Assembly (NCBI RefSeq): GCF_002211445.1
Contig: NZ_LSTO01000001.1
Coordinates: 3,022,431-3,079,498 of the forward strand
Reading direction: 5' to 3'
DNA from: Noviherbaspirillum denitrificans
GTDB taxonomy: Bacteria > Pseudomonadota > Gammaproteobacteria > Burkholderiales > Burkholderiaceae_D
Length of the DNA stretch: 57,068 nucleotides
The notes under the pieces are model-generated. The model saw nothing but the letters and a program-made list of their open reading frames with translations, searched no databases and was not told the origin of the DNA. A program made the translations under genes and the position numbers. Of the stretch, positions 20,732 through 37,493 are shown piece by piece. Each line of letters starts with the position of its first letter. The stretch's first letter is position 1.

Positions 20732-21691
20732 TCATTTGCTCCCGTTCCCGGCTGCTTCCCAGGGATGGGTCTCGATCCAGTGGTTCGCGATGTCGATGCG
20801 GCGGCAGACCCAGGCATGCTCATGCGACTGCACATGATCCAGGAAGCGCTGCAGCGCGCGAAAACGCCCCGGCCTGCCGAGCAGCCGGCAATGCATGCCG
20901 ATGGACAACATCTTCGGACGGTCCTCCTGTTGCGGGTCGCCCTCGGCGTACAGCACGTCGAAACTGTCCTTCAGGTACTGGAAGAACTGTTCGCCAGTGT
21001 TGAAGCCCTGCGGTGTTGCAAAGCGCATGTCATTGGCGTCGAGCGTATAGGGAACGACAAGATGGGGCTTGCTCGTACCGTCGGAGAGTTCCACCTCCGT
21101 CCAGAAAGGCAAGTCGTCGCCGTAGTAATCAGAGTCATACGTGAATCCGCCCTGCTCCACCACCAGCCGCCGGGTCTGCGGAGAATCGCGCCCGGTGTAC
21201 CAGCCGAGCGGCGCGTGCCCGGTCAGTTGGCGCTGGATGTCGATCGCGATGCGCATGTGCTCGCGCTCGGTGGCTTCATCCATGTGCTGGTAATGAATCC
21301 AGCGCCAGCCGTGGCATGCGATTTCATGGCCGAGTTCAACGAATGCTTGCGTGAGGTCGGGATGGCGCTGCAAGGCCATGCCGACACCGAATACGGTCAA
21401 CGGCAGCTTGCGCCGCTCGAATTCGCGCAGGATGCGCCATACCCCGGCACGCGATCCATACTCGTAGATGGACTCCATCGACATATGCCGTGCCTCGTAA
21501 GCCGCGGCGCCGACGATCTCCGAGAGGAACTGCTCGGAGGCCTTGTCGCCGTGCAGCACGCAGTTCTCGCCGCCTTCCTCGTAGTTCAGCACGAACTGCA
21601 CGGCAATGCGTGCGCCGCCGGGCCAGCGCGCGTGCGGGATGTTGCGGCCGTAGCCGATGAGGTCGCGCGGGTAGGTGTTTGAATTCTGCAT
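20732..21691 (-). CDS. puuE: Allantoinase, polysaccharide-deacetylase type
   Basis: A 319-residue cofactor-type enzyme of the NodB/PuuE fold, hydrolysing allantoin to allantoate. Diagnostic stretches are YPRDLIGYGRNIPHARWPGG at the N-terminus, VQFVLNYEEGGE, the metal-site region HEIACHGWRWIHY and the GWYTGR and YDSDYYGDDLPFW segments typical of PuuE. The ATG at 21691 is one base after the glxR stop (TGACATG) with GGAAG upstream, so the two genes are translationally linked; an upstream ORF start at 21736 lies inside glxR. It acts in the cytoplasm as the ring-opening step before AllC. Confidence 0.92.
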   Translation of the reverse strand: MQNSNTYPRDLIGYGRNIPHARWPGGARIAVQFVLNYEEGGENCVLHGDKASEQFLSEIVGAAAYEARHMSMESIYEYGSRAGVWRILREFERRKLPLTVFGVGMALQRHPDLTQAFVELGHEIACHGWRWIHYQHMDEATEREHMRIAIDIQRQLTGHAPLGWYTGRDSPQTRRLVVEQGGFTYDSDYYGDDLPFWTEVELSDGTSKPHLVVPYTLDANDMRFATPQGFNTGEQFFQYLKDSFDVLYAEGDPQQEDRPKMLSIGMHCRLLGRPGRFRALQRFLDHVQSHEHAWVCRRIDIANHWIETHPWEAAGNGSK

Positions 21692-22855: not shown

Positions 22856-24097
22856 ATGATTCAGGCGACAGACAAAGGGGCACGCATCATGCGCTGGGCC
22901 GACGAGCTCGCCCGGCATACGGAAGCGCCCGGAATGCTGACGCGCACCTACCTCACCCCGGCACATGGTGGCGCGGCAAACCAGCTCGCGCAGTGGATGC
23001 GGGAAGCCGGCATGACCGTGCGGCGCGACAATGCGGGCAATGTGATCGGCCGCTATGAAGGACAGTCGCCGGACGCGCCGTCGCTGCTCACGGGATCCCA
23101 TTTCGACACCGTCCGCGACGCGGGCAAGTACGACGGCAACCTCGGCATCATCCTGCCGATCGCCTGTATCGCGGAATGGAACCGCCAGGAACGCCGCTTC
23201 CCGTTTGCGCTCGAAGTCATCGGTTTTGCCGAAGAGGAAGGCGTCCGTTTCAAGGCCACGCTTCTGGGCAGCCGCGCCATTGCCGGCAGCTTCGACAAGA
23301 CAGTGCTCGACAAGCGCGACAATGAAGGCCGGACGATGCGCGAAGTCATGACTGCCGCCGGGCTCTCGGCAGACGCGATCGACGGCTGTGCGTTTGATCC
23401 CGCCAAGGCGCTGGCCTTCATGGAAGTGCATATCGAACAAGGACCTGTCCTGCTCGACGAAAACCTGCCCGTCGGCGTGGTGACCGCCATTTCAGGCGCC
23501 TCACGCTTCATGGTGACCGCGGTCGGCCTCGCCGGCCATGCGGGCACCGTGCCGATGACACTGCGCCGAGACGCGGCGATGACGGCGGCGGAAATCGGCC
23601 TGACCATCGAAAAGCGCTGCTCCGGCATTCCCGGCCTCGTCGGTACTGTCGGACAACTCGAAGTGCCGAACGGCGCCGCCAACGTCGTGCCGGGCAAAGC
23701 CGTGTTCACGATTGATATCCGCGCCGAAAGCGACGATGTCCGCCTTGCAGCGGTGAACGACGTCATGGCGGCGATGCGCGACATCGCCGCACGCCGCAAT
23801 GTCAGCCTCGACATTCACCAGACGCATGAAGCGAAAAGCGTCCCCTGCGCCGGCTGGCTGCAGGAACAGCTCGCCAGCGCGATTGCCGGCTTCGACCTGC
23901 CGCTGCGCCGCCTCCCTTCCGGCGCGGGGCACGACGCGATGGCGCTGGCCGGGCTGACTGATGTGGCCATGCTGTTCGTCCGCTGCGGCAATGGCGGCAT
24001 CAGCCATCACCCGGACGAAACGATGACCGCCGAAGACGCGGACATCGCCGCCAGCATCTTCATGCGATTCGTCGAACACTTCAAGGCGCAATCCTGA
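22856..24097 (+). CDS. allC: Allantoate amidohydrolase (M20 family)
   Basis: A 413-residue binuclear metallohydrolase. The metal ligands are visible in GSHFDTVRDAGKYDGNLGI, in EEEGVRF and in MEVHIEQGPVL; the dimerisation domain lies in the middle (about 200-320), and the C-terminal histidine is in GGISHHPDE. It hydrolyses allantoate to ureidoglycine or ureidoglycolate plus ammonia and CO2. The related N-carbamoyl amino acid hydrolases share the fold, so context (puuE, glxR) carries part of the call. GAAGGAG precedes the ATG at 22856; the frame is open 19 codons further but without a ribosome site. Confidence 0.9.
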   Translation: MIQATDKGARIMRWADELARHTEAPGMLTRTYLTPAHGGAANQLAQWMREAGMTVRRDNAGNVIGRYEGQSPDAPSLLTGSHFDTVRDAGKYDGNLGIILPIACIAEWNRQERRFPFALEVIGFAEEEGVRFKATLLGSRAIAGSFDKTVLDKRDNEGRTMREVMTAAGLSADAIDGCAFDPAKALAFMEVHIEQGPVLLDENLPVGVVTAISGASRFMVTAVGLAGHAGTVPMTLRRDAAMTAAEIGLTIEKRCSGIPGLVGTVGQLEVPNGAANVVPGKAVFTIDIRAESDDVRLAAVNDVMAAMRDIAARRNVSLDIHQTHEAKSVPCAGWLQEQLASAIAGFDLPLRRLPSGAGHDAMALAGLTDVAMLFVRCGNGGISHHPDETMTAEDADIAASIFMRFVEHFKAQS

Positions 24098-24148: not shown

Positions 24149-25774
24149 ATGACCACCATCCACATCGACGGCTTCACCCTCACCGCAGAACAAGTCATCG
24201 CGATCGCCCGCGACCCGCAAGTCAAGGTCGGCCTCGCCCAATCGTCGCGCGACGCGCTCAAGCAAAGCCGCGACTACATCGAATCCACCTGGATGCACGA
24301 TGATGCGCCGATGATGTACAGCTTCAACACCGGTGTCGGCCTGTTGAAAGACACCCGCATCAAGGTTGAGCACATCGAACTGTTCCAGACCCAGATGATC
24401 CGCGCGCACGCCGCCGGCATGGGCGAGCCGTTCTCCGAAGAAGTCAGCCGCGCCACCATGCTGTTGCGCGCCAATGCCTTCGCCAGCAACTATTCCGCCC
24501 CGCGTGTCGAAGTGGTCGACCGCCTGCTGGCCTTCATCAATGCCGGTATCCATCCAGTGATGCCGCAAAAGGGATCGGTCGGCGCTTCCGGCGACCTCGC
24601 GCCGCTGTCCTACCTGGCAGCCGCCATCGCCGGTTTCAATGAAGCGGAAGTGATGTACCAGGGCAAGCGCATGAGTGCGCCGGAAGCGATCCTGAAATCC
24701 GGCGTCGGCCCGGTGCAATTCGACCTCAAGGCCAAGGACGCGTCAGCGCTGATCAACGGCTGCACCGTGTCGCTCGCGGCGGCGGTGCTGGCCGCGCACG
24801 ATGCGCGCAACCTGCTGTCCGATGCCTGCCTGTCGCTCGGCCTGACGCTGGAAGCGATGCGTGCCGAAATGGCCGGTTTCGACGAGCGTATCCACCTCGC
24901 CCGTCCGCACGCCGGCCAGGTCAAGACCGCCGCCATCATCCGCAACCTGCTCAAGGGCTCGACCCGCACCACGCACGAGGCGCGCGCCGTGCAATTCCCC
25001 GATGAACTGCGCCGCAGCGACATCCCCTACACGCCGCGCATCCAGGATGTGTATTCGCTGCGCTGTGCGCCGCAAGTGTACGGACCGGTCTTCGATGCGC
25101 TCGATTACATCGACACCATCGTCGCCAAGGAAATCAATTCCGCCACCGACAACCCGCTGATCTTTGGCAAGGATGGCGGCGGTTTCGAGATCATTTCCGG
25201 CGGCAACTTCCACGGCCAGTACCTCGCGCAGGCGATGGACTTGCTCGCGATGGCGATCACCGACCTCGGCAGCATCTGCGAACGCCGTATCGCGCGCCTG
25301 ATCGACCCCACGCTGTCGTGGGGCTTGCCGCGCAACCTGATGACCGGCATCCGCGGCGTCAATACCGGTTATCCGGTGGTGCAGTGCTCGATGAGTTCGC
25401 TGGTGATGGAAAACCGCACGCTGTGCATGCCGGGCAGCGTCGACAGCATCCCATCCAAGGGCAACAGCGAAGACCACATCTCGAATTCAACCTGGTGCGC
25501 ACGCAAGGCGGCCACGGTGGTTGCCAATACGCAGTACATCATCGGCGTGGAAATGCTGCTCGCCGCGCAGGCGCTGACGATGACCGAATCGCTGCTGCCG
25601 GGCTTCGTTCTGGGACAGGGTACGCAAGCCGCGTACGAAGAAGTGCGGCGCCAGATTCCGGCGTGCCTGGAAGGCGACCGCTGGTTCCACAACGATATCC
25701 AGGTGGCGCAATCCTTCGTGACCAGCGGATCGGTACGTGCGGCGGTGGAGAAGAAGATCGGCCGCTTCGTCTGA
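24149..25774 (+). CDS. Aromatic amino acid lyase, histidine ammonia-lyase type
   Basis: A 541-residue MIO-dependent lyase. Ala146-Ser147-Gly148 in GSVGASGDLAPLSY form the MIO cofactor, the catalytic Tyr57 lies in MYSFNTGVG, and the C-terminal SVDSIPSKGNSEDHIS segment is intact. The selectivity position in MIRAHAAG (Ala86-His87) is closer to the Ser-His of HutH than to the residues of tyrosine or phenylalanine lyases, so histidine is a reasonable guess. However, no other hut gene is present, and the gene lies 51 bases after allC. Its substrate in this context is uncertain. It is likely co-transcribed with allC. Confidence 0.85.
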   Translation: MTTIHIDGFTLTAEQVIAIARDPQVKVGLAQSSRDALKQSRDYIESTWMHDDAPMMYSFNTGVGLLKDTRIKVEHIELFQTQMIRAHAAGMGEPFSEEVSRATMLLRANAFASNYSAPRVEVVDRLLAFINAGIHPVMPQKGSVGASGDLAPLSYLAAAIAGFNEAEVMYQGKRMSAPEAILKSGVGPVQFDLKAKDASALINGCTVSLAAAVLAAHDARNLLSDACLSLGLTLEAMRAEMAGFDERIHLARPHAGQVKTAAIIRNLLKGSTRTTHEARAVQFPDELRRSDIPYTPRIQDVYSLRCAPQVYGPVFDALDYIDTIVAKEINSATDNPLIFGKDGGGFEIISGGNFHGQYLAQAMDLLAMAITDLGSICERRIARLIDPTLSWGLPRNLMTGIRGVNTGYPVVQCSMSSLVMENRTLCMPGSVDSIPSKGNSEDHISNSTWCARKAATVVANTQYIIGVEMLLAAQALTMTESLLPGFVLGQGTQAAYEEVRRQIPACLEGDRWFHNDIQVAQSFVTSGSVRAAVEKKIGRFV

Positions 25775-28529: not shown

Positions 28530-29000
28530 TTACTGCGGCGTCTGGCACTTCTGCCACGCTTCATACAGGTCTTCACCCTCGGCGCGCACCGGCACGCCGG
28601 ACAGCTTCATGTCACGCTGCCCGACCGGCTTGGCGAGTTCGATGTAGCCCCGCTCCGCCGACAAGTCGTACGGCGCACCATCCTCGTTCGAGTACGCGTA
28701 ATACACCTCCTTGACGCCGGACAGGTACATTGCGGTCAGGCACATCGGGCAAGGATAGCCGCTGGCATACACCGTGGATCCGCGCAGGTCGGTATGACCC
28801 TGCACCTTGGCTGCCTCGCGCACTGCCTGCATCTCCGCGTGCGCGGTCGGGTCGCAGGTCGCATCGACCTGGTTCACCGACCTGGCGAGCACCTTGCCGT
28901 CCCGTACCAGAACGGCGCCGAAAGGCCAGGTCTTCCGTTCGCGAACGTTTTCCATCGCGAGCTGGATCGACTCGAGTAGGTATTTCTCTGTGTGTGACAT
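28530..29000 (-). CDS. guaD: Guanine deaminase-type nucleobase deaminase
   Basis: A 156-residue cytidine-deaminase-fold enzyme. The zinc site reads PTAHAEMQAV (His and catalytic Glu) and YPCPMC (two Cys), with PFGAVLVRDGK at the N-terminus. The length, the DPTAHAE motif and the downstream NEDGAPYD stretch resemble bacterial GuaD of the small type, which converts guanine to xanthine. A tRNA or cytosine deaminase role is less likely given the neighbours. The ATG at 29000 has AGGAA 7 bases upstream and lies 23 bases after uraH. It is the last gene of cassette 1, where it would feed xanthine toward urate. Confidence 0.82.
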   Translation of the reverse strand: MSHTEKYLLESIQLAMENVRERKTWPFGAVLVRDGKVLARSVNQVDATCDPTAHAEMQAVREAAKVQGHTDLRGSTVYASGYPCPMCLTAMYLSGVKEVYYAYSNEDGAPYDLSAERGYIELAKPVGQRDMKLSGVPVRAEGEDLYEAWQKCQTPQ

Positions 29001-29023
29001 TGCATTTCCTGTTGAAGTTGCGC

Positions 29024-29359
29024 TCAGCTGCCGCGGTAGGTCGAAAAACACCACGGCGAACAGAGCAAGGGGACGTGGTAGTGCTGCTTGGCGTCGAAGA
29101 CGGTGAAACGGACCGGGATCTCTTCCGAGAACACGTTCTCGTTCTTGAAATGGGCGCCGACATAAAAGCGCAGTTCAAAATCGCCGACGCGGGTCTGCTC
29201 CGGTGTCAGCATCGGACCATCGGTGCGGCCGTCCGGATTGCTGCGCACGCTCTTGAGCAGCGTCGGCGGCGTGGTTTTCAGGTCATACAAATCGATCTGC
29301 ATGCCGGCGATCGGGCGGCCGGTCGATATGTTCAATACGTGTGTCGTGATTCCTGCCAT
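29024..29359 (-). CDS. uraH: 5-hydroxyisourate hydrolase (copy 1)
   Basis: A 111-residue transthyretin-related protein of standard length. It begins MAGITTHVLN (His7), has the Arg in PDGRTDGP (about 45), the His in QHYHVPLL and the C-terminal YRGS tetrapeptide. It hydrolyses 5-hydroxyisourate, the urate oxidase product, to OHCU. There is no signal peptide, so it is cytoplasmic. GAGGAGAG precedes the ATG. It lies between the Tat-exported paralogue and the guanine deaminase gene in cassette 1. A second cytoplasmic copy is at 34995-35348. Confidence 0.93.
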   Translation of the reverse strand: MAGITTHVLNISTGRPIAGMQIDLYDLKTTPPTLLKSVRSNPDGRTDGPMLTPEQTRVGDFELRFYVGAHFKNENVFSEEIPVRFTVFDAKQHYHVPLLCSPWCFSTYRGS

Positions 29360-29390: not shown

Positions 29391-29906
29391 TCAGCTGCCG
29401 CGGTAGTAGGTGTAGTTCCACGGGCTGAACTGGATGGGCAGGTGGATGCGCTCGGCGGTATTGCGGACCTGGAAGCGGACCGGCACCTTGGACAGGAAGC
29501 CCGGCTGCGGCAGCCTGGCCTGCTTCATCGCGAAGTAGTCGTCGACATGCAGCAACACCTCGTAGTTGCCTTCACGGTAGGTATCGCCGATCAGCAGCGG
29601 CTCGTCGGAACGGCCGTTGGGATTGATCGTGACGCTGCGGATCGGCACAGGGCGGCCGTTTTCGATCGAAGAAAAATCGACGCGCAATCCGACCGCAGCC
29701 TGGCCGTGGAAGGTGTCGAGGATATGGATCGTCAGGCGCGGGCTCACCCCGTGCAGGACGATCGGGCCGGACGATTGTGCGGCGGACGGCGCCGCCGGGG
29801 TGGTCGATGCCAGCGCACTACGCGAAACCAGCGCAGCGCCTCCCAGTGCCAGGCCGGCGACGGCAAAACGCCGGCGGTCGGGGTTCTTGATGCTGTTGTC
29901 GTTCAT
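29391..29906 (-). CDS. Tat-exported 5-hydroxyisourate hydrolase-like protein
   Basis: A 171-residue protein. A twin-arginine-type signal (DRRRFAVAGLALGGAALVS) precedes a probable ALA-S cleavage site near residue 33 and a 20-residue spacer. The rest is a complete transthyretin-like domain: His61 in LTIHILDT, Arg99 in NGRSDEP, His155 in RIHLPI and the terminal YRGS. All four catalytic elements of 5-hydroxyisourate hydrolase are kept, so an active periplasmic enzyme is plausible. Its ribosome site (AAAGGAGGAG) lies in the end of the upstream MFS gene, whose stop is one base before its ATG. Confidence 0.85.
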   Translation of the reverse strand: MNDNSIKNPDRRRFAVAGLALGGAALVSRSALASTTPAAPSAAQSSGPIVLHGVSPRLTIHILDTFHGQAAVGLRVDFSSIENGRPVPIRSVTINPNGRSDEPLLIGDTYREGNYEVLLHVDDYFAMKQARLPQPGFLSKVPVRFQVRNTAERIHLPIQFSPWNYTYYRGS

Positions 29907-29907
29907 A

Positions 29908-31245
29908 TCACTCCTCCTTTTTTAATTTGCGTGCAATACAGCTCAACACGAGTATTGCCGCGATTGCTTCTACTACGGCTACAACATAGAGTCCCGGTGA
30001 AACCCTTCCGGTCGCGTTCTTGATCAGCCCCATCAGGTAGGGCGCGCCGAAGCCGGCCAGGTTGGATACGGAATTGATCAGGGCCACGCCGATGGCGGCG
30101 GCGCCGCCGGCAAGGTAACGGTTGGGCAGCTGCCAGAACACCGGGATCGCGCTCATCGTTCCCACCAGCGCCAGCCCCATCGCCAGCAGCGGCAGGAGTG
30201 CGCCCCTCCCCGGCGTGTCCAGCAGGACCGCAAGCGTGCCCATCGCGAGTGCCCCGACCAGTGCGGCACCGCTGAAATGCCACCGGACTTCGCCGTGCCT
30301 GTCCGAATGCGCGCCGTTCAGGATCATTCCCGCGGCGCCGCACAGATACACTGCGGCGGCGATCCAGCCGACCGCCATCGGCGAGGCATAGCCCGTTTCC
30401 TTGACGATGGTCGGGATCCAGAAAGTCAGTGTCGAATTGGCGCAGAGCAGGCAAAAGAAGATGGCGATCAGCAGCCACACGACGGGATTGCGGAACAGAC
30501 TGCGCCAGTCGCTGCCGCGCTCGCCCATTTCCCGGTTGTCGCGATCCAGCGCGTCCCGGATCAACCGCTTCTCGTGCTGTGCCAGCCAGCCGGCGTGCTC
30601 GGGCTTGTCGGTCATGTAGAAGTACGCGGCGACGCCGGCGAGGACGGACGGGATCCCTTCCAGGATGAACAGCCATTGCCAGCCATGCATGCCGTGGACG
30701 CTGCCCATCGATGTCATGATCCAGCCCGCGATCGGGCCGCCCAGCACGCCGGCGAGTGCCGACGCGGACATGAAGGTGCCGAATGCTTTTGCGCGCCGCT
30801 GGCTCGGATACCAGTAAGTCAGGTACAGGATCATGCCCGGGTAGAATCCCGCTTCGAACGCGCCGAGCAGGAAGCGAAGGATGTAGAACTGCATCGGCGT
30901 GGACACGAAGGCTTGCACCATGCAGATCAGCCCCCAGCCGATGGTGATGCGCATCACCGTTTTCCTGGCGCCGATCTTTTGCAGCAAGGCATTGGAAGGC
31001 ACTTCAAACAGGAAATAGCCGAGGAAGAAGATGCCCGCGCCAAGGCCGTACACCGCTTCGCTGAACTTGAGGTCGTCGAGCATCTGCAGCTTGGCGAAGC
31101 CGATATTGACGCGGTCGATCCAGGCCAGGATCCATAGCGCCCCGAGGAAGGGCAGCAAGCGCCAGGACACCTTGCGGTAGACGGCATCCTCTTCGGTCTG
31201 CTCCACGCCGGCGTAGACGGGAAGCTCCTGTTCTCTGGTCGTCAT
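29908..31245 (-). CDS. MFS transporter, anion:cation symporter family (cassette 1)
   Basis: A 445-residue carrier with 12 predicted helices. Family marks are LAWIDRVNIGFAKLQML in helix 1, YFLFEVPSNALLQKIGARK between helices 2 and 3, and GAFEAGFYPGMILYLTYWY in helix 4, as in tartrate, phthalate and other organic-anion carriers of the ACS family. The context suggests uptake of a purine or ureide such as urate or allantoin (inference). The ATG at 31245 has AAAGGAG 6 bases upstream; the 59-codon extension has no support. It is closely related to the MFS protein of cassette 2 (33594). It is the first gene of the operon and is divergent from a LysR gene. Confidence 0.9.
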   Translation of the reverse strand: MTTREQELPVYAGVEQTEEDAVYRKVSWRLLPFLGALWILAWIDRVNIGFAKLQMLDDLKFSEAVYGLGAGIFFLGYFLFEVPSNALLQKIGARKTVMRITIGWGLICMVQAFVSTPMQFYILRFLLGAFEAGFYPGMILYLTYWYPSQRRAKAFGTFMSASALAGVLGGPIAGWIMTSMGSVHGMHGWQWLFILEGIPSVLAGVAAYFYMTDKPEHAGWLAQHEKRLIRDALDRDNREMGERGSDWRSLFRNPVVWLLIAIFFCLLCANSTLTFWIPTIVKETGYASPMAVGWIAAAVYLCGAAGMILNGAHSDRHGEVRWHFSGAALVGALAMGTLAVLLDTPGRGALLPLLAMGLALVGTMSAIPVFWQLPNRYLAGGAAAIGVALINSVSNLAGFGAPYLMGLIKNATGRVSPGLYVVAVVEAIAAILVLSCIARKLKKEE

Positions 31246-31333
31246 CTTGTCTCCTTTGCATGGCTGCTTCATCCATGGCAGCCTGTATTGAAGGCAAGTA
31301 TAGGAAGCCGTACCCCGAAAGGAAACGCGAGGG

Positions 31334-31354
31334 CTGTTATAGACCGAATAGCAG
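31334..31354. promoter_or_regulatory. LysR-type operator dyad between MFS and LysR of cassette 1
   Basis: CTGTTAT-N7-ATAGCAG is an inverted repeat with a T-N11-A core. The same layout, CTGCTAT-N7-ATAACAA, is found at 36501-36521 before the paralogous LysR gene. It lies 66 bases upstream of the LysR ATG and 88 upstream of the MFS ATG. Confidence 0.55.
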
Positions 31355-31420
31355 AACCGATATTGGAAAACCTGTTGCCGGACGCGAAAATCAGCCCACC
31401 TTCCCTTGAGGCGAATTGCC

Positions 31421-32356
31421 ATGATCCGGGCCGACGACCCTTTCGATACCTATCTGCTGCGCGTCCTGTGCACCGTGATCGCCGAGCAAAGCGTGTCGCG
31501 CGCCGCCATCCGGCTGAACCAGTCGCAACCGGCCATCAGCGCCGCCCTCAAGCGCCTGCGCGCCATCTTCAACGATCCGCTGCTGACGCGGGACAGGAAC
31601 CTGATGGTGCCCACGGAACGGGCAATGCAGATCGCGGCGCAGGCGCGCACGGCCTTGAACCTGCTGGATGGCTTGCTGGTCTCGGACAGCAGCTTCGACC
31701 CGGCGTCGACGGAACAGACCTTCACCATCGCGATGCCGGACTACCTGGCGCCTGCCTTCTTTGCCCATGTCGCGCGGACCTTCCGCGTTAGTGCTCCAGG
31801 CGCCCGGCTGATTGCACAGCCGTTAGTAGCACAATACGACTACGAACAGGCGCTTGCGGACGGCACGGTCGATATCGTCATCGGCAACTGGCCGAATCCG
31901 CCGGAACACCTGCACCTGTCGGTCCTGCTTGAGGATGAGGTCGTCTGTGTGCTTGCGCAGGACAACCCCTTGAGCCAGCCCGGCAAGCTGACCGCAGAAA
32001 GCTATCTGCGTGCATCGCACATTGTCCCGGTGCCGTATTCGCGCGGACAGCGCGGCGTGGTCGAGAGCGGACTGGGCACGATGCGCGTCAGCCGCGACCG
32101 CCGTATTCAGTGCCCGTACCTGAGCGTGGCGCCCAGCCTGCTTCCCGGCACCGACCTCATCCTGACCACGGCCCGGCACTTCGCGCACTACCATGCGCAG
32201 CGGATTCCGCTGGCCGTCGTGGCGTCGCCGATTCCGTTTCCATTCATGCGTTTTTACCAGCTGTGGCATCCGGCGCGGCATCGTTCTCCGGCGCATGTGT
32301 GGCTGCGCGGCGTACTTACCGCGGCCGCGCGCGAGCTGAAGGTGCTTCTGGATTAA
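31421..32356 (+). CDS. LysR family regulator (cassette 1)
   Basis: A 311-residue regulator. The N-terminal winged helix is VIAEQSVSRAAIRLNQSQPA with LKRLRAIFNDPLL, and the C-terminal effector domain begins near residue 95 (FTIAMPDYLAPAFFAHVA). The sequence is strikingly close to the LysR at 36540 in segments such as IGNWPNPPEHLHLSVLLEDE and FMRFYQLWH. The ATG at 31421 has GAGGCG upstream, whereas the first in-frame start at 31406 is a TTG inside that ribosome site. It is divergent from the MFS-led cassette 1, which it probably controls through the dyad at 31334. Confidence 0.9.
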   Translation: MIRADDPFDTYLLRVLCTVIAEQSVSRAAIRLNQSQPAISAALKRLRAIFNDPLLTRDRNLMVPTERAMQIAAQARTALNLLDGLLVSDSSFDPASTEQTFTIAMPDYLAPAFFAHVARTFRVSAPGARLIAQPLVAQYDYEQALADGTVDIVIGNWPNPPEHLHLSVLLEDEVVCVLAQDNPLSQPGKLTAESYLRASHIVPVPYSRGQRGVVESGLGTMRVSRDRRIQCPYLSVAPSLLPGTDLILTTARHFAHYHAQRIPLAVVASPIPFPFMRFYQLWHPARHRSPAHVWLRGVLTAAARELKVLLD

Positions 32357-32398: not shown

Positions 32399-33448
32399 TT
32401 AAAAGGTATGGCGAACGCCGATGTTGACGGACCGGTCGCCGCTTCCGGCATCAGTGGCGTTGCCGGCAGTGTAGAAGCCAGGGGCGTTGTTGGCGGCGGT
32501 GTTGTCGATGTGCGCGACCGAGGTGTACAGGTTGGTGCGCTTCGACAACGCATAGGTATAACCCAGCGCCACCTGGCTGGCATCGTTGCCGGCCGCGGTC
32601 CGGTCGGACTTGCGGATGTACGATGCGAGGAAGGTACCCGCGCCCACCGGCGCACTCAGGCCAATCATCAGGTCGCGCGTATCGGCCTGCGCCACGTTCG
32701 TATTTCCGGCGACGGCGTTCTTGTTGAGCGCATAGGCGCCGTGCACGGCAGCAATGCCGAAGTCATACTTGACGCCGAGCGTGGTCACTTTCGAACTCGA
32801 CGTTGCGCCGGCATTGTTGACGTTGTTATGCGCCAGCCGTACCGCCAGCGGCCCGGCGGTATAGCCGACCTGCCCAGCCAGGGTGCGCAGCGACGAAGTG
32901 TCTCCCGCGGTCTCGCCAAAGCCGTAGGTCATCTCGGCCATCATTCCGGACGTCAGCGGCGCCGCGTACTTGATTGCATTGTTGGTGCGCGGACCGCCGC
33001 CGGTAGCCGCGGTTCCCCCTTGCGACATAAGGTTGCCCGCATTGCCGGCGAGGCCACATGCAAACGGGTCGATCACGCCGCACAGGGACGTAAAGATTGG
33101 CGTGTATTGCCGCCCGAGCGTGACAGTCCCGAATGCGCCCTTGAGGCCGACAAACGCCTGGCGTCCGAACAGCGCCCCGCCCTGCAATGCCGCTCCGGTA
33201 TCGAGCGCAAAGCCGTTCTCCAGTGTGAACAGCGCGGACATGCCGCCGCCCAGGTCTTCCGCTCCCCTGAAACCGATGCGCGAGGCATTCTGCATGCCGC
33301 TCGTCACCTTGGTGACGGAACCGGCAGCACCTCCGCGCTGATACTCGACGCCACCGTCGATCAGGCCATATACCGTGACGTTCGATTGCGCGGCGGCCGT
33401 GGCGGACACCATACCGAGCGCGATCAGGCAGCCAGTCATTTTTCTCAT
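32399..33448 (-). CDS. Gram-negative outer-membrane porin
   Basis: A 349-residue trimeric-type general porin of the betaproteobacterial class. It has a signal peptide (MRKMTGCLIALGMVSATAAAQ), the first strand SNVTVYGLIDGGVEY, the characteristic FRGAEDLGGGMSALFTLENG segment, the loop-3 region after LGRQYTPIF, and a C-terminal strand ending in Phe (NIGVRHTF) for BamA recognition. GGGAG precedes the ATG. It is the last gene of cassette 2, 145 bases after the MFS gene, which suggests an outer-membrane entry route for the same substrate. Confidence 0.92.
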   Translation of the reverse strand: MRKMTGCLIALGMVSATAAAQSNVTVYGLIDGGVEYQRGGAAGSVTKVTSGMQNASRIGFRGAEDLGGGMSALFTLENGFALDTGAALQGGALFGRQAFVGLKGAFGTVTLGRQYTPIFTSLCGVIDPFACGLAGNAGNLMSQGGTAATGGGPRTNNAIKYAAPLTSGMMAEMTYGFGETAGDTSSLRTLAGQVGYTAGPLAVRLAHNNVNNAGATSSSKVTTLGVKYDFGIAAVHGAYALNKNAVAGNTNVAQADTRDLMIGLSAPVGAGTFLASYIRKSDRTAAGNDASQVALGYTYALSKRTNLYTSVAHIDNTAANNAPGFYTAGNATDAGSGDRSVNIGVRHTF

Positions 33449-33593: not shown

Positions 33594-34934
33594 TTACTGC
33601 GCAGTCTTGAGTTGCGAGCCGAGTGGCTTTTGCGGACGGATGAGAAGCAATACCAGCAGCGCGCCGAAAGCCTCGATCATGGCCACCGCCAGCAGGCCGG
33701 ACGACAGCCCGCCGCCGGCATCCTTGAGCACACCCATCGCATACGGCGCGCCGAATCCGGCCAGGTTCGCGAACGAGTTGATCATCGCGACACCTGCCGC
33801 GGCGGCCGCACCGGACACGTACAAGTTCGGCAATTGCCAGAAGACCGGGATCGCGCTCATCGTGCCCATCACCGCAAGCGTCAGCGCAATGAATGCCAGC
33901 ACGGGCTGATGGGCCAGCATCGCAGTGGCAGCCATGGCACTCGCACCAAGCAGTGCCGCGCCGGCCACGTGCAGCGTGTTCTTGCCGGTCTTGTCCGCGA
34001 AGTAGCCGTTGCTGACCATGCCGCAAGCGCCGAAGATGTACGCCACGCCGATGAGCAGGCCGACGTGCAGCGAATCGGACACGCCCATGTCGCGGACGAT
34101 GCTCGGTGCCCAGAAGGTCAGTGTCGAGTTGGCCGCAATAATGCAGAAGAAGATCGCCACCAGCGCCCACAGCTTAGGCTTGCGCAGGCTGGCCAGGAAG
34201 CTGTGCTCGCGTGGACCGCATGCGGCGGCATCGCGCTGCAGTTCACGCTGCACGAAGGCGCGCTCGTCCTCGCTCAGCCACTTGGCCTGCGACGGCTTGT
34301 CGGTCAGGTACGCCAGGGTCACGAGTCCGGCAAGCACGGACGGGATGCCTTCGATCAGGAACAGCCATTGCCAGCCACGCATGCCGTGGAAGTCGTTCAG
34401 CGAGGTCATGATGATGCCGGCGAGCGGGCCGCCGATGATGCCTGCAATCGCCGACGCCGACATGAACAGGCCGAACGCACGCGAACGGCGCTCGCTCGGA
34501 TACCAGTAGGTCAGGTAAAGGATGATGCCGGGATAGAAACCTGCCTCGAACACGCCCAGCAGGAAGCGCAGCACATAGAACTGCGTCGGGGTGGTCGTGA
34601 ACAGCATCAGGATGCTGACGATGCCCCAGCCGATTGTGATGCGGGCGATAGTCTTGCGCGCACCGATGCGGTCCAGCAGGATGTTGCTCGGCACTTCGAA
34701 CAGGAAATAGCCGAGAAAGAAAATCCCCGCGCCGAGGCCGTATACTGCCTCGGAAAAGTGCAGGTCATTCAGCATTTGCAGCTTCGCGAAGCCGATGTTG
34801 ACCCGGTCAAGCCAGGCCAGGACCCAGAGTACGCACAGGAAAGGAATCAGGCGCCAGCTGATCTTCGAGTAAATGCGGTCGGCTTCGGTCTTGGGCGGAA
34901 CAGCCCGCGCGCCGCGTGTGTTGAGGGTGGTCAT
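33594..34934 (-). CDS. MFS transporter, anion:cation symporter family (cassette 2)
   Basis: A 446-residue 12-helix carrier, a close paralogue of the cassette 1 carrier. Long identical stretches include FSEAVYGLGAGIFFLGYFLF, LFEVPSN, GIPSVLAG and GTMSAIPVFWQLPN. Family marks are LAWLDRVNIGFAKLQML and GVFEAGFYPGIILYLTYWY. The substrate is probably an organic anion of the urate/allantoin pathway, by context only. The ATG at 34934 has AGGAG 9 bases upstream; the extension to 34967 is not supported. It follows uraH copy 2 by 60 bases and precedes the porin. Confidence 0.9.
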   Translation of the reverse strand: MTTLNTRGARAVPPKTEADRIYSKISWRLIPFLCVLWVLAWLDRVNIGFAKLQMLNDLHFSEAVYGLGAGIFFLGYFLFEVPSNILLDRIGARKTIARITIGWGIVSILMLFTTTPTQFYVLRFLLGVFEAGFYPGIILYLTYWYPSERRSRAFGLFMSASAIAGIIGGPLAGIIMTSLNDFHGMRGWQWLFLIEGIPSVLAGLVTLAYLTDKPSQAKWLSEDERAFVQRELQRDAAACGPREHSFLASLRKPKLWALVAIFFCIIAANSTLTFWAPSIVRDMGVSDSLHVGLLIGVAYIFGACGMVSNGYFADKTGKNTLHVAGAALLGASAMAATAMLAHQPVLAFIALTLAVMGTMSAIPVFWQLPNLYVSGAAAAAGVAMINSFANLAGFGAPYAMGVLKDAGGGLSSGLLAVAMIEAFGALLVLLLIRPQKPLGSQLKTAQ

Positions 34935-34994
34935 CACTAGTCTCCTAAGTGTGCAGTCATGCTGCACTATCGTCCTTGAATCGGTTGCAGTACC

Positions 34995-35348
34995 TTAGCT
35001 TCCGCGGTATGTCGTGCAGCTCCACGGCGTCGCCAGCATCGGCACGTGGTAATGCTGCTGGGTGTCGAACACCGCGAACCGGACTGGCACCGTGTCGATG
35101 AATGCCAGTTCCGGCATCGGCGTCCCAATCTTCGAAAAATACTCCCTTACGTGAAACACCAGCTCGTACTTGCCGACCTTGGTGTCTTCCGGCTTCAGGA
35201 TCATCTGGTCGGTGCGGCCGTCCTTGTTCGTGACGACCGTCTTCACCAGGCGGTAACGGTTGTCTTCCCAGACCGAAAAATCAATGCGCATGCCGGCGCC
35301 CGGCAAGCCGGTGGCGGTGTTCAGTACATGTGTGGTTATGCCAGCCAA
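34995..35348 (-). CDS. uraH: 5-hydroxyisourate hydrolase (copy 2), TTG start
   Basis: A 117-residue transthyretin-related hydrolase with MAGITTHVLN (His7), KDGRTDQM with Arg, QHYHVPML with His and the terminal YRGS, so it is catalytically complete. It has no signal peptide. The start codon is TTG with GGAG 5 bases upstream, giving the same MAGITTHVLN N-terminus as copy 1. It lies 32 bases after the exported lipoprotein paralogue. It duplicates the function of copy 1 but under the second LysR gene, so the two may respond to different signals. Confidence 0.92.
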   Translation of the reverse strand: MAGITTHVLNTATGLPGAGMRIDFSVWEDNRYRLVKTVVTNKDGRTDQMILKPEDTKVGKYELVFHVREYFSKIGTPMPELAFIDTVPVRFAVFDTQQHYHVPMLATPWSCTTYRGS

Positions 35349-35380: not shown

Positions 35381-35857
35381 TCAACTGCCGCGGTAGTACG
35401 AATAGCTCCAGGGCGTGAGCAGGATCGCAATGTGGTAGAGCTGGCGCGGATCATCGATCGAGAAGCGGATCGGCACCTCGGTCAGGAAGGCCGGGCGCGG
35501 CATCGTGGCGCCGAGCCTTGCGTAATGTTGCTCGACGTGCAAGACCAGTTCATAGCTGCCGCGTTTGAAGTTTTCTCCCTCGAACAGCGGCTGGTCGGTC
35601 CGCCCACCCTTGTTGGTGTCGAAGCTGCGCAGCAAGCGGTACGACTGCCCGTCCAGCACGGACAGGTCGACACGCATGCCGGCCCCCGGCAGCCCGGTCC
35701 AGGTATCGATTGCATGGATGGTGAGGCGTCCGGGGCCGCTTGCGGCTGCCTGCTGAGCCGGCGCATTGCCGAGTGCGCTGCAACCAGCCAGCGCAGAGGA
35801 TCCTGCCGCCAGTCCTGCCGCAAGGAAGCGCCTGCGGGAAAGCTCGTTGCCGCTCAT
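35381..35857 (-). CDS. Tat lipoprotein, 5-hydroxyisourate hydrolase-like
   Basis: A 158-residue protein with a twin-arginine motif (SRRRFLAAG, residues 7-15) and a lipobox (SALAGC) with Cys26 as the lipidation site. A short Ala/Gln spacer leads to a transthyretin-like domain with His48 (LTIHAIDTW), Arg86 (GGRTDQP), His142 (LYHIAI) and the terminal YRGS. All hydroxyisourate hydrolase catalytic positions are kept. The mature protein would be tethered in the periplasm. Its ATG overlaps the uraD stop in ATGA, so it is translated together with OHCU decarboxylase. Confidence 0.87.
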   Translation of the reverse strand: MSGNELSRRRFLAAGLAAGSSALAGCSALGNAPAQQAAASGPGRLTIHAIDTWTGLPGAGMRVDLSVLDGQSYRLLRSFDTNKGGRTDQPLFEGENFKRGSYELVLHVEQHYARLGATMPRPAFLTEVPIRFSIDDPRQLYHIAILLTPWSYSYYRGS

Positions 35858-36390
35858 GCCGCATCCTTTTGCAGCGGCGTCGTCTCTTCCGCGAAAATTC
35901 GGTCCAGGCGCATCCGCACGATATTGAAGACCTGCGCAATGTTATTGTCGAACTCCGTCGCGGTATCGTTCTGCAGCCGACGTTCGAACTCGCTGAAGAT
36001 TTCCGCCTTGGAATAATTGCGCACCGCAATAATGAACGGGAACTGGTGCTTGGCGCGGTAAGCCGCATTCAGTTGCCGCATCTTTTGCAGTTCGCCCGAG
36101 GTCAGGGAATTCAGTCCCGCGGTCGACTGTTCGATGACCGAGTTCACGGTCATGTTGCCGTCCTGCGCCTCCTTGCCGGCCAGGTCAGGGTGCAGGCACA
36201 GTAGCGCCTCGATCTGTGTCCGCGGCGCCCGGCGTACCGCACCGAACATCGCCTGGTAAAACTCCTCGATCGTCGCAAACGGCCGATCCTGCCAGGCTTG
36301 CTCTGCTACCCAGGGCGAATACTCGAACACACCGCCGAATGCGTTGGTGAAAGAGTCGCGGCTCATTTGATTTACTGCTGTCAGGTCCAT
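35854..36390 (-). CDS. uraD: OHCU decarboxylase
   Basis: A 178-residue all-helical enzyme that decarboxylates 2-oxo-4-hydroxy-4-carboxy-5-ureidoimidazoline to S-allantoin. Visible marks are FGGVFEYSPWVAEQAW, the catalytic-His region LLCLHPDLAGK, the SAGL-like segment QSTAGLNSLT and the substrate loop YRAKHQFPFIIAVRN. AAAGGAA precedes the ATG at 36390; the upstream extension to 36411 is less likely. It is the first gene of cassette 2 and is divergent from LysR at 36540. With the uraH copies and puuE it completes the route from hydroxyisourate to allantoate. Confidence 0.93.
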   Translation of the reverse strand: MDLTAVNQMSRDSFTNAFGGVFEYSPWVAEQAWQDRPFATIEEFYQAMFGAVRRAPRTQIEALLCLHPDLAGKEAQDGNMTVNSVIEQSTAGLNSLTSGELQKMRQLNAAYRAKHQFPFIIAVRNYSKAEIFSEFERRLQNDTATEFDNNIAQVFNIVRMRLDRIFAEETTPLQKDAA

Positions 36391-36500
36391 CTGCCATTCC
36401 TTTGTTTTCATCGTTGGTGATGCGCCGCTCGCATGTAAAAAACGGCTGCGTCATGCGAATGAAATATAGAGGACGGGGCAAACCGTGCACAATCGGCAAT

Positions 36501-36539: not shown

Positions 36540-37493
36540 ATGTCACGCGCCACCGACCCGCTGGATACCTTCCTGTTACGCGTCCTGGAAACCCTGATCG
36601 CCGAGCGCAGCGTCTCCAAGGCAGCGGCCCGGCTCAACCAGTCGCAACCCGCTATCAGCGCCGTCCTCAAGCGCCTGCGCGAGACCTTCAACGATCCCCT
36701 GCTGGTGCGAGAAAAGGGACAGATGATCCCGACAGCGCGCGCACTCGAGCTGGTGGTATCGGCGCGCGTGATCCTCGAAGAAGCGGCACGTATGATGGCG
36801 GAGCCGACCACCTACGTCGCCGCGACGTCACAGCGCGAATTCCGCGTCGGCGCGGCCGACTTTCTCACGGCAACCTTCCTTGGCGAGGTCGTGGAACTGA
36901 TGCGGCAGGACGCCCCGATGACGCGGCTGTCGGTTATTCCGCTGCGCGGCGACCTCGACTACGAAACCGCACTGGCCAACGGCGAACTCGACCTCGTGAT
37001 CGGCAACTGGCCCAACCCGCCGCCGCAACTGCACCTGTCGATCCTGCTGGAAGACGACATCGTCTGCCTGATGGGAAAACACAATCCGCTCGGCGAGGAC
37101 ATGACGCAGGCCGACTATCTCGCCGCGGCCCACATCGTGCCGCTGCCCTATTCGAACATGCACCGCGGTGTGGTGGAAACGCACCTGTCGAGTATGCGAC
37201 TCGCACGCAACGCGGTGATCAGCCTGCCCTTCTTCAGCATCGCGCCTTATCTGCTGGTGCGCTCGGACCTGGTGTTCACGACCAGCCGGCATTTTGCGAA
37301 CTACTATGCGAACTTCCTGCCGCTAAAGATCGTTACGCCGCCAATGGCGTTTCCGGAGATGCGGTTTTACCAGCTATGGCATGAGCGGACCCATCGGTCG
37401 AGCGCGCACGAGTGGCTACGGAGTGTTTTTACGAAAGCGAGCAGGAAGACGCGCGAGGCGAACAGGAAGGGACCGAGACAGTCGAAGGTTTAG
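36540..37493 (+). CDS. LysR family regulator (cassette 2)
   Basis: A 317-residue LysR regulator. The winged helix has LIAERSVSKAAARLNQSQPA and LKRLRETFNDPLLV; the effector domain starts near 95 (FRVGAADFLTATFLGEVV). It shares long stretches with the cassette 1 LysR (IGNWPNPPPQLHLSILLEDD, VPLPYSNMHRGVVE, MRFYQLWHERTHRSSAHEWL), so the two arose by duplication. It is divergent from the uraD-led cassette 2 and likely controls it. The C-terminus ends in a basic tail (RKTREANRKGPRQSKV), 19 bases before the tRNA-Ser gene on the opposite strand. Confidence 0.92.
   Translation: MSRATDPLDTFLLRVLETLIAERSVSKAAARLNQSQPAISAVLKRLRETFNDPLLVREKGQMIPTARALELVVSARVILEEAARMMAEPTTYVAATSQREFRVGAADFLTATFLGEVVELMRQDAPMTRLSVIPLRGDLDYETALANGELDLVIGNWPNPPPQLHLSILLEDDIVCLMGKHNPLGEDMTQADYLAAAHIVPLPYSNMHRGVVETHLSSMRLARNAVISLPFFSIAPYLLVRSDLVFTTSRHFANYYANFLPLKIVTPPMAFPEMRFYQLWHERTHRSSAHEWLRSVFTKASRKTREANRKGPRQSKV

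Follow-up and report, generated by a model that had tools for sequence, protein, structure and literature searches.

The gene at 29391..29906 of the window, the whole 57,068-nucleotide stretch of Noviherbaspirillum denitrificans DNA that was analyzed, most likely encodes an exported enzyme of the 5-hydroxyisourate (HIU) hydrolase (HIUase) type that is predicted to be active. The protein carries a twin-arginine (Tat-type) leader, and its gene belongs to a recurring cassette that pairs it with a cytoplasmic HIUase and usually adds an MFS transporter, the OHCU decarboxylase UraD and a LysR-type regulator. Our best explanation, to which we give an even chance, is that this cassette is an accessory module whose Tat-exported enzyme would serve as the periplasmic half, opening HIU or a urate-derived analogue whose product would then be imported.

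Leader and domain of the focal protein

The focal gene lies on the minus strand. Its ATG start, closely preceded by AGGAGG, comes one base after the stop of the MFS gene upstream, and its 171-residue product ends in YTYYRGS. As the first-pass annotation had read from the letters, this product contains a complete transthyretin-like hydrolase domain: in a profile search, residues 58-170 aligned with positions 1-109 of the 109 in PF00576 (E 1.6e-23; 83.8 bits against a gathering score of 25.3). With TIGR02962, the hydroxyisourate hydrolase equivalog model, the score was 86.6 bits, 0.85 bit short of the cut-off of 87.45, which the other two exported copies of the genome exceed (95.8 and 94.7). The HIUase-family profile search proposed in that annotation thus agreed for PF00576 and fell short for the equivalog, and we therefore name the protein HIUase-type rather than a proven HIUase. 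By phmmer alignment, His61, Arg99, His155 and the terminal YRGS match the solved HIUases 4q14, 8uw4 and 2h0e, in keeping with the earlier claim that the catalytic residues are all kept. The first-shell residues named for kpHIUH are His7, Arg41, His92, Tyr105 and Ser108 (PMC8272043, which, like the other papers cited here by PMC number, is drawn on in excerpt). By alignment position these correspond to H61, R99, H155, Y168 and S171 of the focal protein, which are kept in 32/33, 32/33, 33/33, 33/33 and 30/33 exported rows, respectively. In an AlphaFold model, 100 residues have a pLDDT of 90 or more and the first ~50 residues about 50, the low confidence expected of a leader plus linker; the top Foldseek match of this model was 4q14 (E 1.9e-14; TM 0.94 by target length).

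The twin-arginine leader of the 171-residue product reads MNDNSIKNPDRRRFAVAGLALGGAALVSRSALA^ST, and within DRRRFAVAGLALGGAALVSRSALA^ST we recognized a twin-arginine motif, a hydrophobic stretch and an AxA cleavage site (the last placed by eye). The parts of the twin-arginine-type signal suggested at first reading are therefore present in the sequence, and they recur in relatives. Tat-like leaders in these relatives were called by a simple rule-based script, and the sequence patterns used to fetch the loci sit within the domain, outside the leader. The rule was satisfied by 63/65 exported relatives with a resolvable domain start (L061, whose domain start was not resolvable, lies outside the 65) and by 76/1156 other ORFs in those loci, taken as background; a Tat-like leader is thus present beyond chance. 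The exported relative of L077 lacks the motif, and that of L034 was scored negative because of an RRRR run, the motif being visible there all the same. TatC is encoded once in the genome (PF00902, one match). Judged from sequence, Tat export of a focal protein with an intact active site is a well-supported prediction.

Gene neighborhood in the window and the genome

Four HIUase-type genes were found in the window, arranged as two exported-plus-cytoplasmic pairs, each with an MFS transporter gene and a divergent LysR-type gene. These and the neighboring genes of later pathway steps are as follows:

20732..21691, minus strand: allantoinase PuuE, a later pathway step in a neighboring operon (TIGR03212, 532.2; cut-off 424.6)
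22856..24097, plus strand: allantoate amidohydrolase-type M20 hydrolase (NF006775, 544.6; cut-off 479; scanned from 22799)
28530..29000, minus strand: nucleoside/guanine-type deaminase, end of operon 1 (PF00383; scanned as 28530..29054)
29024..29359, minus strand: cytoplasmic HIUase, focal partner (PF00576, 1e-30; TIGR02962, 112.2; cut-off 87.45)
29391..29906, minus strand: focal Tat-signal HIUase-type hydrolase, exported copy 1 (PF00576, phmmer, model)
29908..31422 (reading frame), minus strand: MFS transporter, pair 1 (PF07690)
31421..32356, plus strand: LysR-type regulator, divergent from operon 1 (PF00126, PF03466; scanned from 31406)
32399..33448, minus strand: porin after the second MFS gene, candidate module member (PF13609)
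33594..34967, minus strand: MFS transporter, pair 2 (PF07690)
34995..35348, minus strand: second cytoplasmic HIUase, TTG start (PF00576, 6.8e-32; TIGR02962, 114.7)
35381..35857, minus strand: second exported HIUase (PF00576, 3.5e-26; TIGR02962, 95.8, above cut-off)
35854..36411, minus strand: OHCU decarboxylase UraD (PF09349; TIGR03164, 177.5; cut-off 96.25)
36540..37493, plus strand: LysR-type regulator, divergent from operon 2 (Pfam scan)

The cytoplasmic partner gene lies 31 bp downstream of the focal gene, and its product has six residues only ahead of the catalytic histidine. In operon 2 the first gene is uraD, which ends in a four-base overlap with the start of the exported HIUase gene and whose product has no visible leader (by eye). 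The exported protein of this operon has a twin-arginine leader that ends in the lipobox LAGC (by eye) and is thus likely a Tat lipoprotein. The two MFS proteins are 60% identical to each other and fall short of the cut-offs of all NCBIfam transporter models listed; for that of pair 1 the best model was TIGR00893 (334.7, cut-off 395), and its true start is probably near 31250, since its relatives are ~446 aa long. A tartronate-semialdehyde (2-hydroxy-3-oxopropionate) reductase gene adjoins, near PuuE and the allantoate amidohydrolase. Neither a monooxygenase nor a xanthine-dehydrogenase-type trimer was detected by Pfam among the 20 window genes of 20.6-41.3 kb. Foreign origin was considered from base composition, of which there was no sign, GC being even over 18-42 kb (0.59-0.64).

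Adjoining operon 1, the segment 25890..28478 encodes a histidine kinase, a response-regulator-like ORF and an HbpS-like haem-binding protein that probably has a leader. Relatives of all three lie near the pair in L083; the HbpS-like protein was set aside as a general partner, its relatives occurring in L073 and L083 only (2/67 related loci). Haem-binding genes adjoin 2/7 exported-type uraH genes examined (L109-L113, L117, L118), with annotated ones beside Sec-type uraH in L111 and L113, and none lies alongside the plasmid uraH genes of ordinary operon type in L119 and L120.

Seven HIUases are encoded in the genome: the four of the window, a third exported/cytoplasmic pair and one ordinary copy, which adjoins xanthine dehydrogenase-like ORFs (by eye). 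The third pair, at C1:3773976/3774374 (L011 9336..10219), has no UraD alongside, and no MFS or LysR gene is evident among its adjoining ORFs. About 5 kb from it lie an IS3-type transposase-like ORF and an MNT/HEPN toxin-antitoxin-like pair (by eye). A second UraD in the genome is fused to an M20 hydrolase. PuuD was the only urate oxidase found in the genome; a uricase gave no match, and nothing scored above the cut-off for HpxO (best 81 of 500 bits). Since PuuD is encoded on the same contig at a distance of 1.65 Mb, where a HAL-like lyase and a LysR-like ORF adjoin it, we discarded a urate oxidase as neighbor of the focal gene. The HAL-like aromatic amino acid lyases at window positions 24149..25774 and at L013 9378..11006 are 98% identical (528/539); one adjoins the allantoate amidohydrolase and the other PuuD, and both score slightly below the HutH cut-offs. 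A role of such a lyase in purine breakdown would be unusual.

Recurrence of the cassette and phylogeny of its hydrolases

The three exported proteins were aligned, and genomes were scanned with the alignment; this yielded 67 related loci, spread over Burkholderia, Cupriavidus, Caballeronia, Variovorax, Thauera, Noviherbaspirillum, Methylobacterium, Paracoccus, Streptomyces and some others. Locus contents were counted by BLAST with the window proteins (MFS, UraD, LysR and deaminase within 4.5 kb), and the counts take in loci cut by contig ends. The exported gene and the cytoplasmic HIUase were each found in 66/67 loci, accompanied by an MFS transporter in 63/67, UraD in 61/67, a relative of the window LysR protein in 48/67 and the deaminase in 15/67; exported and cytoplasmic HIUase, MFS, UraD and LysR occurred together in 46/67. 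When selected ORFs were clustered at 35% identity or more, no further family was present in more than 11/67 loci. The two HIUase genes are separated by 11-150 bp (65 loci measured). In the cytoplasmic partner the catalytic histidine is preceded by six or seven residues (64 cases measured), leaving no space for a leader. In Paracoccus methylarcula (L081 7051..9859), TRAP genes (DctP, DctM) stand directly upstream of the exported HIUase, in the usual place of the MFS gene; both transporter types suit organic anions.

In samples not selected for it, the pair is rare. Defined as two same-strand PF00576 matches spaced by about 400 bp, it was present in 4/200 genomes of a phylum sample (any HIUase in 57) and in 1/60 genomes of a family sample (any HIUase in 38), the genome analyzed here included in both. 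This genome has three pairs; the remaining 59 members of the family sample, two from its genus among them, yielded none.

Periplasmic detoxification alone, as proposed for the Salmonella TLP (PMC3528726), would have reactive HIU removed outside the cytoplasm, with import and UraD incidental. The adjacency of E. coli hiuH to hprSR and msrPQ speaks for such a role, as does the HbpS-like protein with its two-component system beside pair 1. However, HbpS relatives occur in only 2/67 loci, and in the majority of these loci cytoplasmic HIUase, MFS transporter and UraD accompany the exported gene, an association that fits use of the product better than detoxification. We consider this explanation improbable.

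Fifty of the 67 host genomes were checked for HIUase number and urate oxidase. Exactly three HIUases were present in 42, four in 6 and two in 2, while PuuD was found in 43/50 and uricase in 8/50 (one with both), giving a urate oxidase in 50/50. The ordinary HIUase and PuuD lay inside the same ~6 kb at 16/20 fetched ordinary loci; two more ordinary HIUases adjoin uricase by coordinates, and L089 and L106 have neither. With the ordinary HIUase mostly beside PuuD, and a urate oxidase in every host checked, the pair comes on top of an ordinary urate pathway. Urate breakdown itself in the periplasm, raised in part by the first-pass annotation, is not supported: a PuuD-like ORF was absent from all 67 related loci, PuuD of this genome is remote from the window, and its UraD is leaderless by eye.

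The exported HIUase might instead be a companion of PuuD, if PuuD released HIU periplasmically. PuuD is membrane-bound with its cytochrome c domain outward (PMC4562309), and it is encoded in 43 of the 50 host genomes. The other 7 have uricase without PuuD, however, and at 16/20 loci it is the ordinary HIUase, rather than the exported one, that PuuD adjoins; the same report argues that urate is oxidized at the cytosolic face, Urah and Urad likewise being cytosolic. Of the explanations weighed, we regard this as the least probable.

A first tree comprised 86 domains. They were drawn from 28 loci selected among the 67, from 20 ordinary loci, from the window genome and from E. coli, with one row each for L080 and L083; L028_cyt was omitted as an out-of-frame row, and with it the cytoplasmic group needed two changes. 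The exported rows formed one clade (100/99), the cytoplasmic rows of the cassette another (98/99) and the ordinary rows a third (91/84). In an extended tree, to which two Pantoea rows, a Hymenobacter row and a Sphingomonas plasmid row were added, these rows grouped apart together with E. coli HiuH (97/74), and the ordinary rows no longer formed one group. The leaders of the Pantoea, Hymenobacter, Sphingomonas plasmid and E. coli HiuH proteins all lack the twin arginine. That the exported form is simply the enterobacterial type was considered and is at most weakly disfavored: a constraint joining the Tat type to E. coli HiuH by itself was not rejected on the 86-domain tree (p-AU 0.086), and one joining it to E. 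coli and the two Pantoea rows, a grouping chosen after the first tree, was weakly rejected on the extended tree (p-AU 0.034). For UraD, the tree did not resolve a cassette clade, with 5 ordinary rows only and long branches.

The two parallel clades, together with strict gene pairing, are also what a mixed tetramer might leave, in which the partner without a signal folds together with the one bearing the Tat leader, is co-exported and acts with it in the periplasm. Tat carries folded proteins, some of its cargo moves as heterodimers with one signal (PMC10924467), and HIUase active sites lie between the two dimers of the tetramer (PMC8272043). Against this, all catalytic residues are present in both partners, so that neither needs the other, and UraD, the user of the product, has no visible leader. 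We judge co-export very unlikely.

Signature residues separate the groups further. The residue before YRGS (167) is Tyr in 33/33 exported rows versus Thr in 19/21 ordinary rows; residue 60, beside the catalytic histidine, is Met, Ile or Phe in 27/33 exported rows versus Thr in 21/21 ordinary rows; and residue 153 is Arg in 28/33 exported rows versus His in 19/21 ordinary rows. At residue 165, 29/31 cytoplasmic-partner rows have Cys or Phe, where the exported and ordinary groups have Tyr. By clade and residues, the Tat-exported HIUase-type proteins are a distinct subfamily at the sequence level. Given the TIGR02962 score below cut-off and residues 60, 153 and 167 unlike those of the ordinary type, the substrate of the focal protein may differ from HIU.

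Genome context in Methylobacterium bears on the same question. On two annotated plasmids (L114 and L115, the latter from a coffee root isolate; L116, which has no annotation, was left out), the cassette lies amid genes for an NCS1 permease, a racemase, an FAD monooxygenase, a TetR regulator and a xanthine-dehydrogenase-family trimer. The monooxygenase belongs to the PRK07236 subfamily and scores 131 bits to HpxO, for which the cut-off is 500. Plasmid spread was considered, the cassette being on these plasmids, yet among plasmid matches none reaches 80% coverage of the focal protein. At a further Methylobacterium locus (L056 4601..11369), the cassette follows genes for a PuuE-like polysaccharide-deacetylase-family protein, an NCS1-type permease and an Asp/Glu/hydantoin racemase, which links it to allantoin use.

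The same cassette could accordingly act on another substrate, a methylated or amino-substituted hydroxyisourate or similar urate analogue, in chemistry parallel to the caffeine C-8 oxidation of TmuH/TmuD in the Pseudomonas CBB1 cluster (PMC4408171). Subfamily-specific residues in both partners, the ordinary HIUase and urate oxidase also encoded in the host genomes, and the neighbors of the two plasmid cassettes, one of them in the coffee-root strain, argue for such a substrate. The 20 scanned window genes, with neither monooxygenase nor trimer, argue against it. So does the distribution of relatives of the plasmid monooxygenase (E<=1e-40): they gave 14 matches in 11 of 28 genomes searched, none of them, by position, within 100 kb of a pair. 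One is encoded in the genome of the window (G000, C1:762307, 49% identical). On this evidence we find an analogue substrate somewhat unlikely.

Candidate function and comparison with known systems

HIUases open HIU to the carboxylate OHCU. Under the reading that we prefer, an accessory module with a periplasmic half, HIU or a close urate-derived analogue would arrive from outside or leak from the cell. HIU could stem from extracellular oxidation of urate or escape from the cell's own pathway, or an analogue could take its place. The exported hydrolase would open HIU to OHCU in the periplasm, the MFS transporter would import OHCU, and the cytoplasmic twin would handle any HIU that enters unhydrolyzed. 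UraD would then decarboxylate OHCU to allantoin in the cytoplasm, which PuuE and the neighboring allantoate hydrolase would degrade. A gene set for an exported hydrolase, a transporter and a cytoplasmic decarboxylase fits a scheme in which the carboxylate is formed outside, imported and decarboxylated inside; export, activity, substrate and direction of transport are predictions in it. We know of no source of HIU outside the cytoplasm here, which counts against this reading, as do the rarity of the pair and the third pair of the genome, with no UraD beside it. The placement of urate oxidation on the cytosolic side (PMC4562309) counts against it as well, as do the sub-cut-off scores of the MFS proteins and, for HIU as substrate, the TIGR02962 score of the focal copy and the altered residues 60, 153 and 167.

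A complete trans-envelope route, with HIU or an analogue (methylated or amino) opened outside by the Tat enzyme, the carboxylate imported by a dedicated MFS or TRAP transporter and the conversion finished by cytoplasmic UraD, appears possible, if doubtful. If true, short-lived intermediates of purine oxidation, commonly regarded as purely intracellular, would have a catabolic system of their own. With a recurring operon in hand, the purpose of periplasmic HIUase, an old question, becomes accessible to plain genetics.

The focal type resembles the HIUase family (PF00576/TIGR02962; PDB 4q14, 8uw4 and 2h0e, PucM) in its fold, full-length domain, His/Arg/His set and C-terminal YRGS, and differs from it in its twin-arginine leader, its own clade and subfamily residues at 60, 119, 153, 160 and 167. 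HIUase had been described at the outset as normally cytoplasmic; this is only partly correct: a periplasmic HIUase of Salmonella has been reported with localization and activity, and enterobacteria are predicted to have the same (PMC3528726, PMC4324301). Export by itself is therefore not new. In the excerpted texts, periplasmic HIUases are treated as an enterobacterial-type group (PMC3528726, PMC4324301) whose genes lie outside purine operons, and in some bacteria a cytosolic copy coexists with a periplasmic one (PMC3528726). The enterobacterial TLP/HiuH proteins (E. coli YedX, Salmonella TLP) are likewise exported, HIUase-type and endowed with the same catalytic residues. They differ in a leader without twin arginine, a separate tree group and that reported location outside purine operons, whereas the focal gene has a second HIUase adjacent and cassette 2 includes UraD. 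The sole periplasmic TLP placed outside the common grouping in the 2012 survey was that of Ralstonia eutropha (PMC3528726). A Tat-exported pair is carried by Cupriavidus necator A5-1 (L048). Ralstonia eutropha is an older name of C. necator, and the Tat-exported family, with a strain of that species among its members, may explain the exception.

The caffeine cluster of Pseudomonas CBB1, with TmuH and TmuD of C-8 oxidation, is alike in placing HIUase-like and UraD-like enzymes in one catabolic cluster, and the Methylobacterium plasmid cassettes have neighbors similar to those of that cluster (PMC4408171). The window is unlike it in having no monooxygenase or dehydrogenase trimer in 20.6-41.3 kb, TmuH and TmuD being likened here by description. 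No description of the cassette or of a Tat-exported HIUase was found in searches of open-licence PMC papers. Relative to these known systems, what is new is the setting, a five-gene module that recurs and whose exported HIUase subfamily has a leader of another kind.
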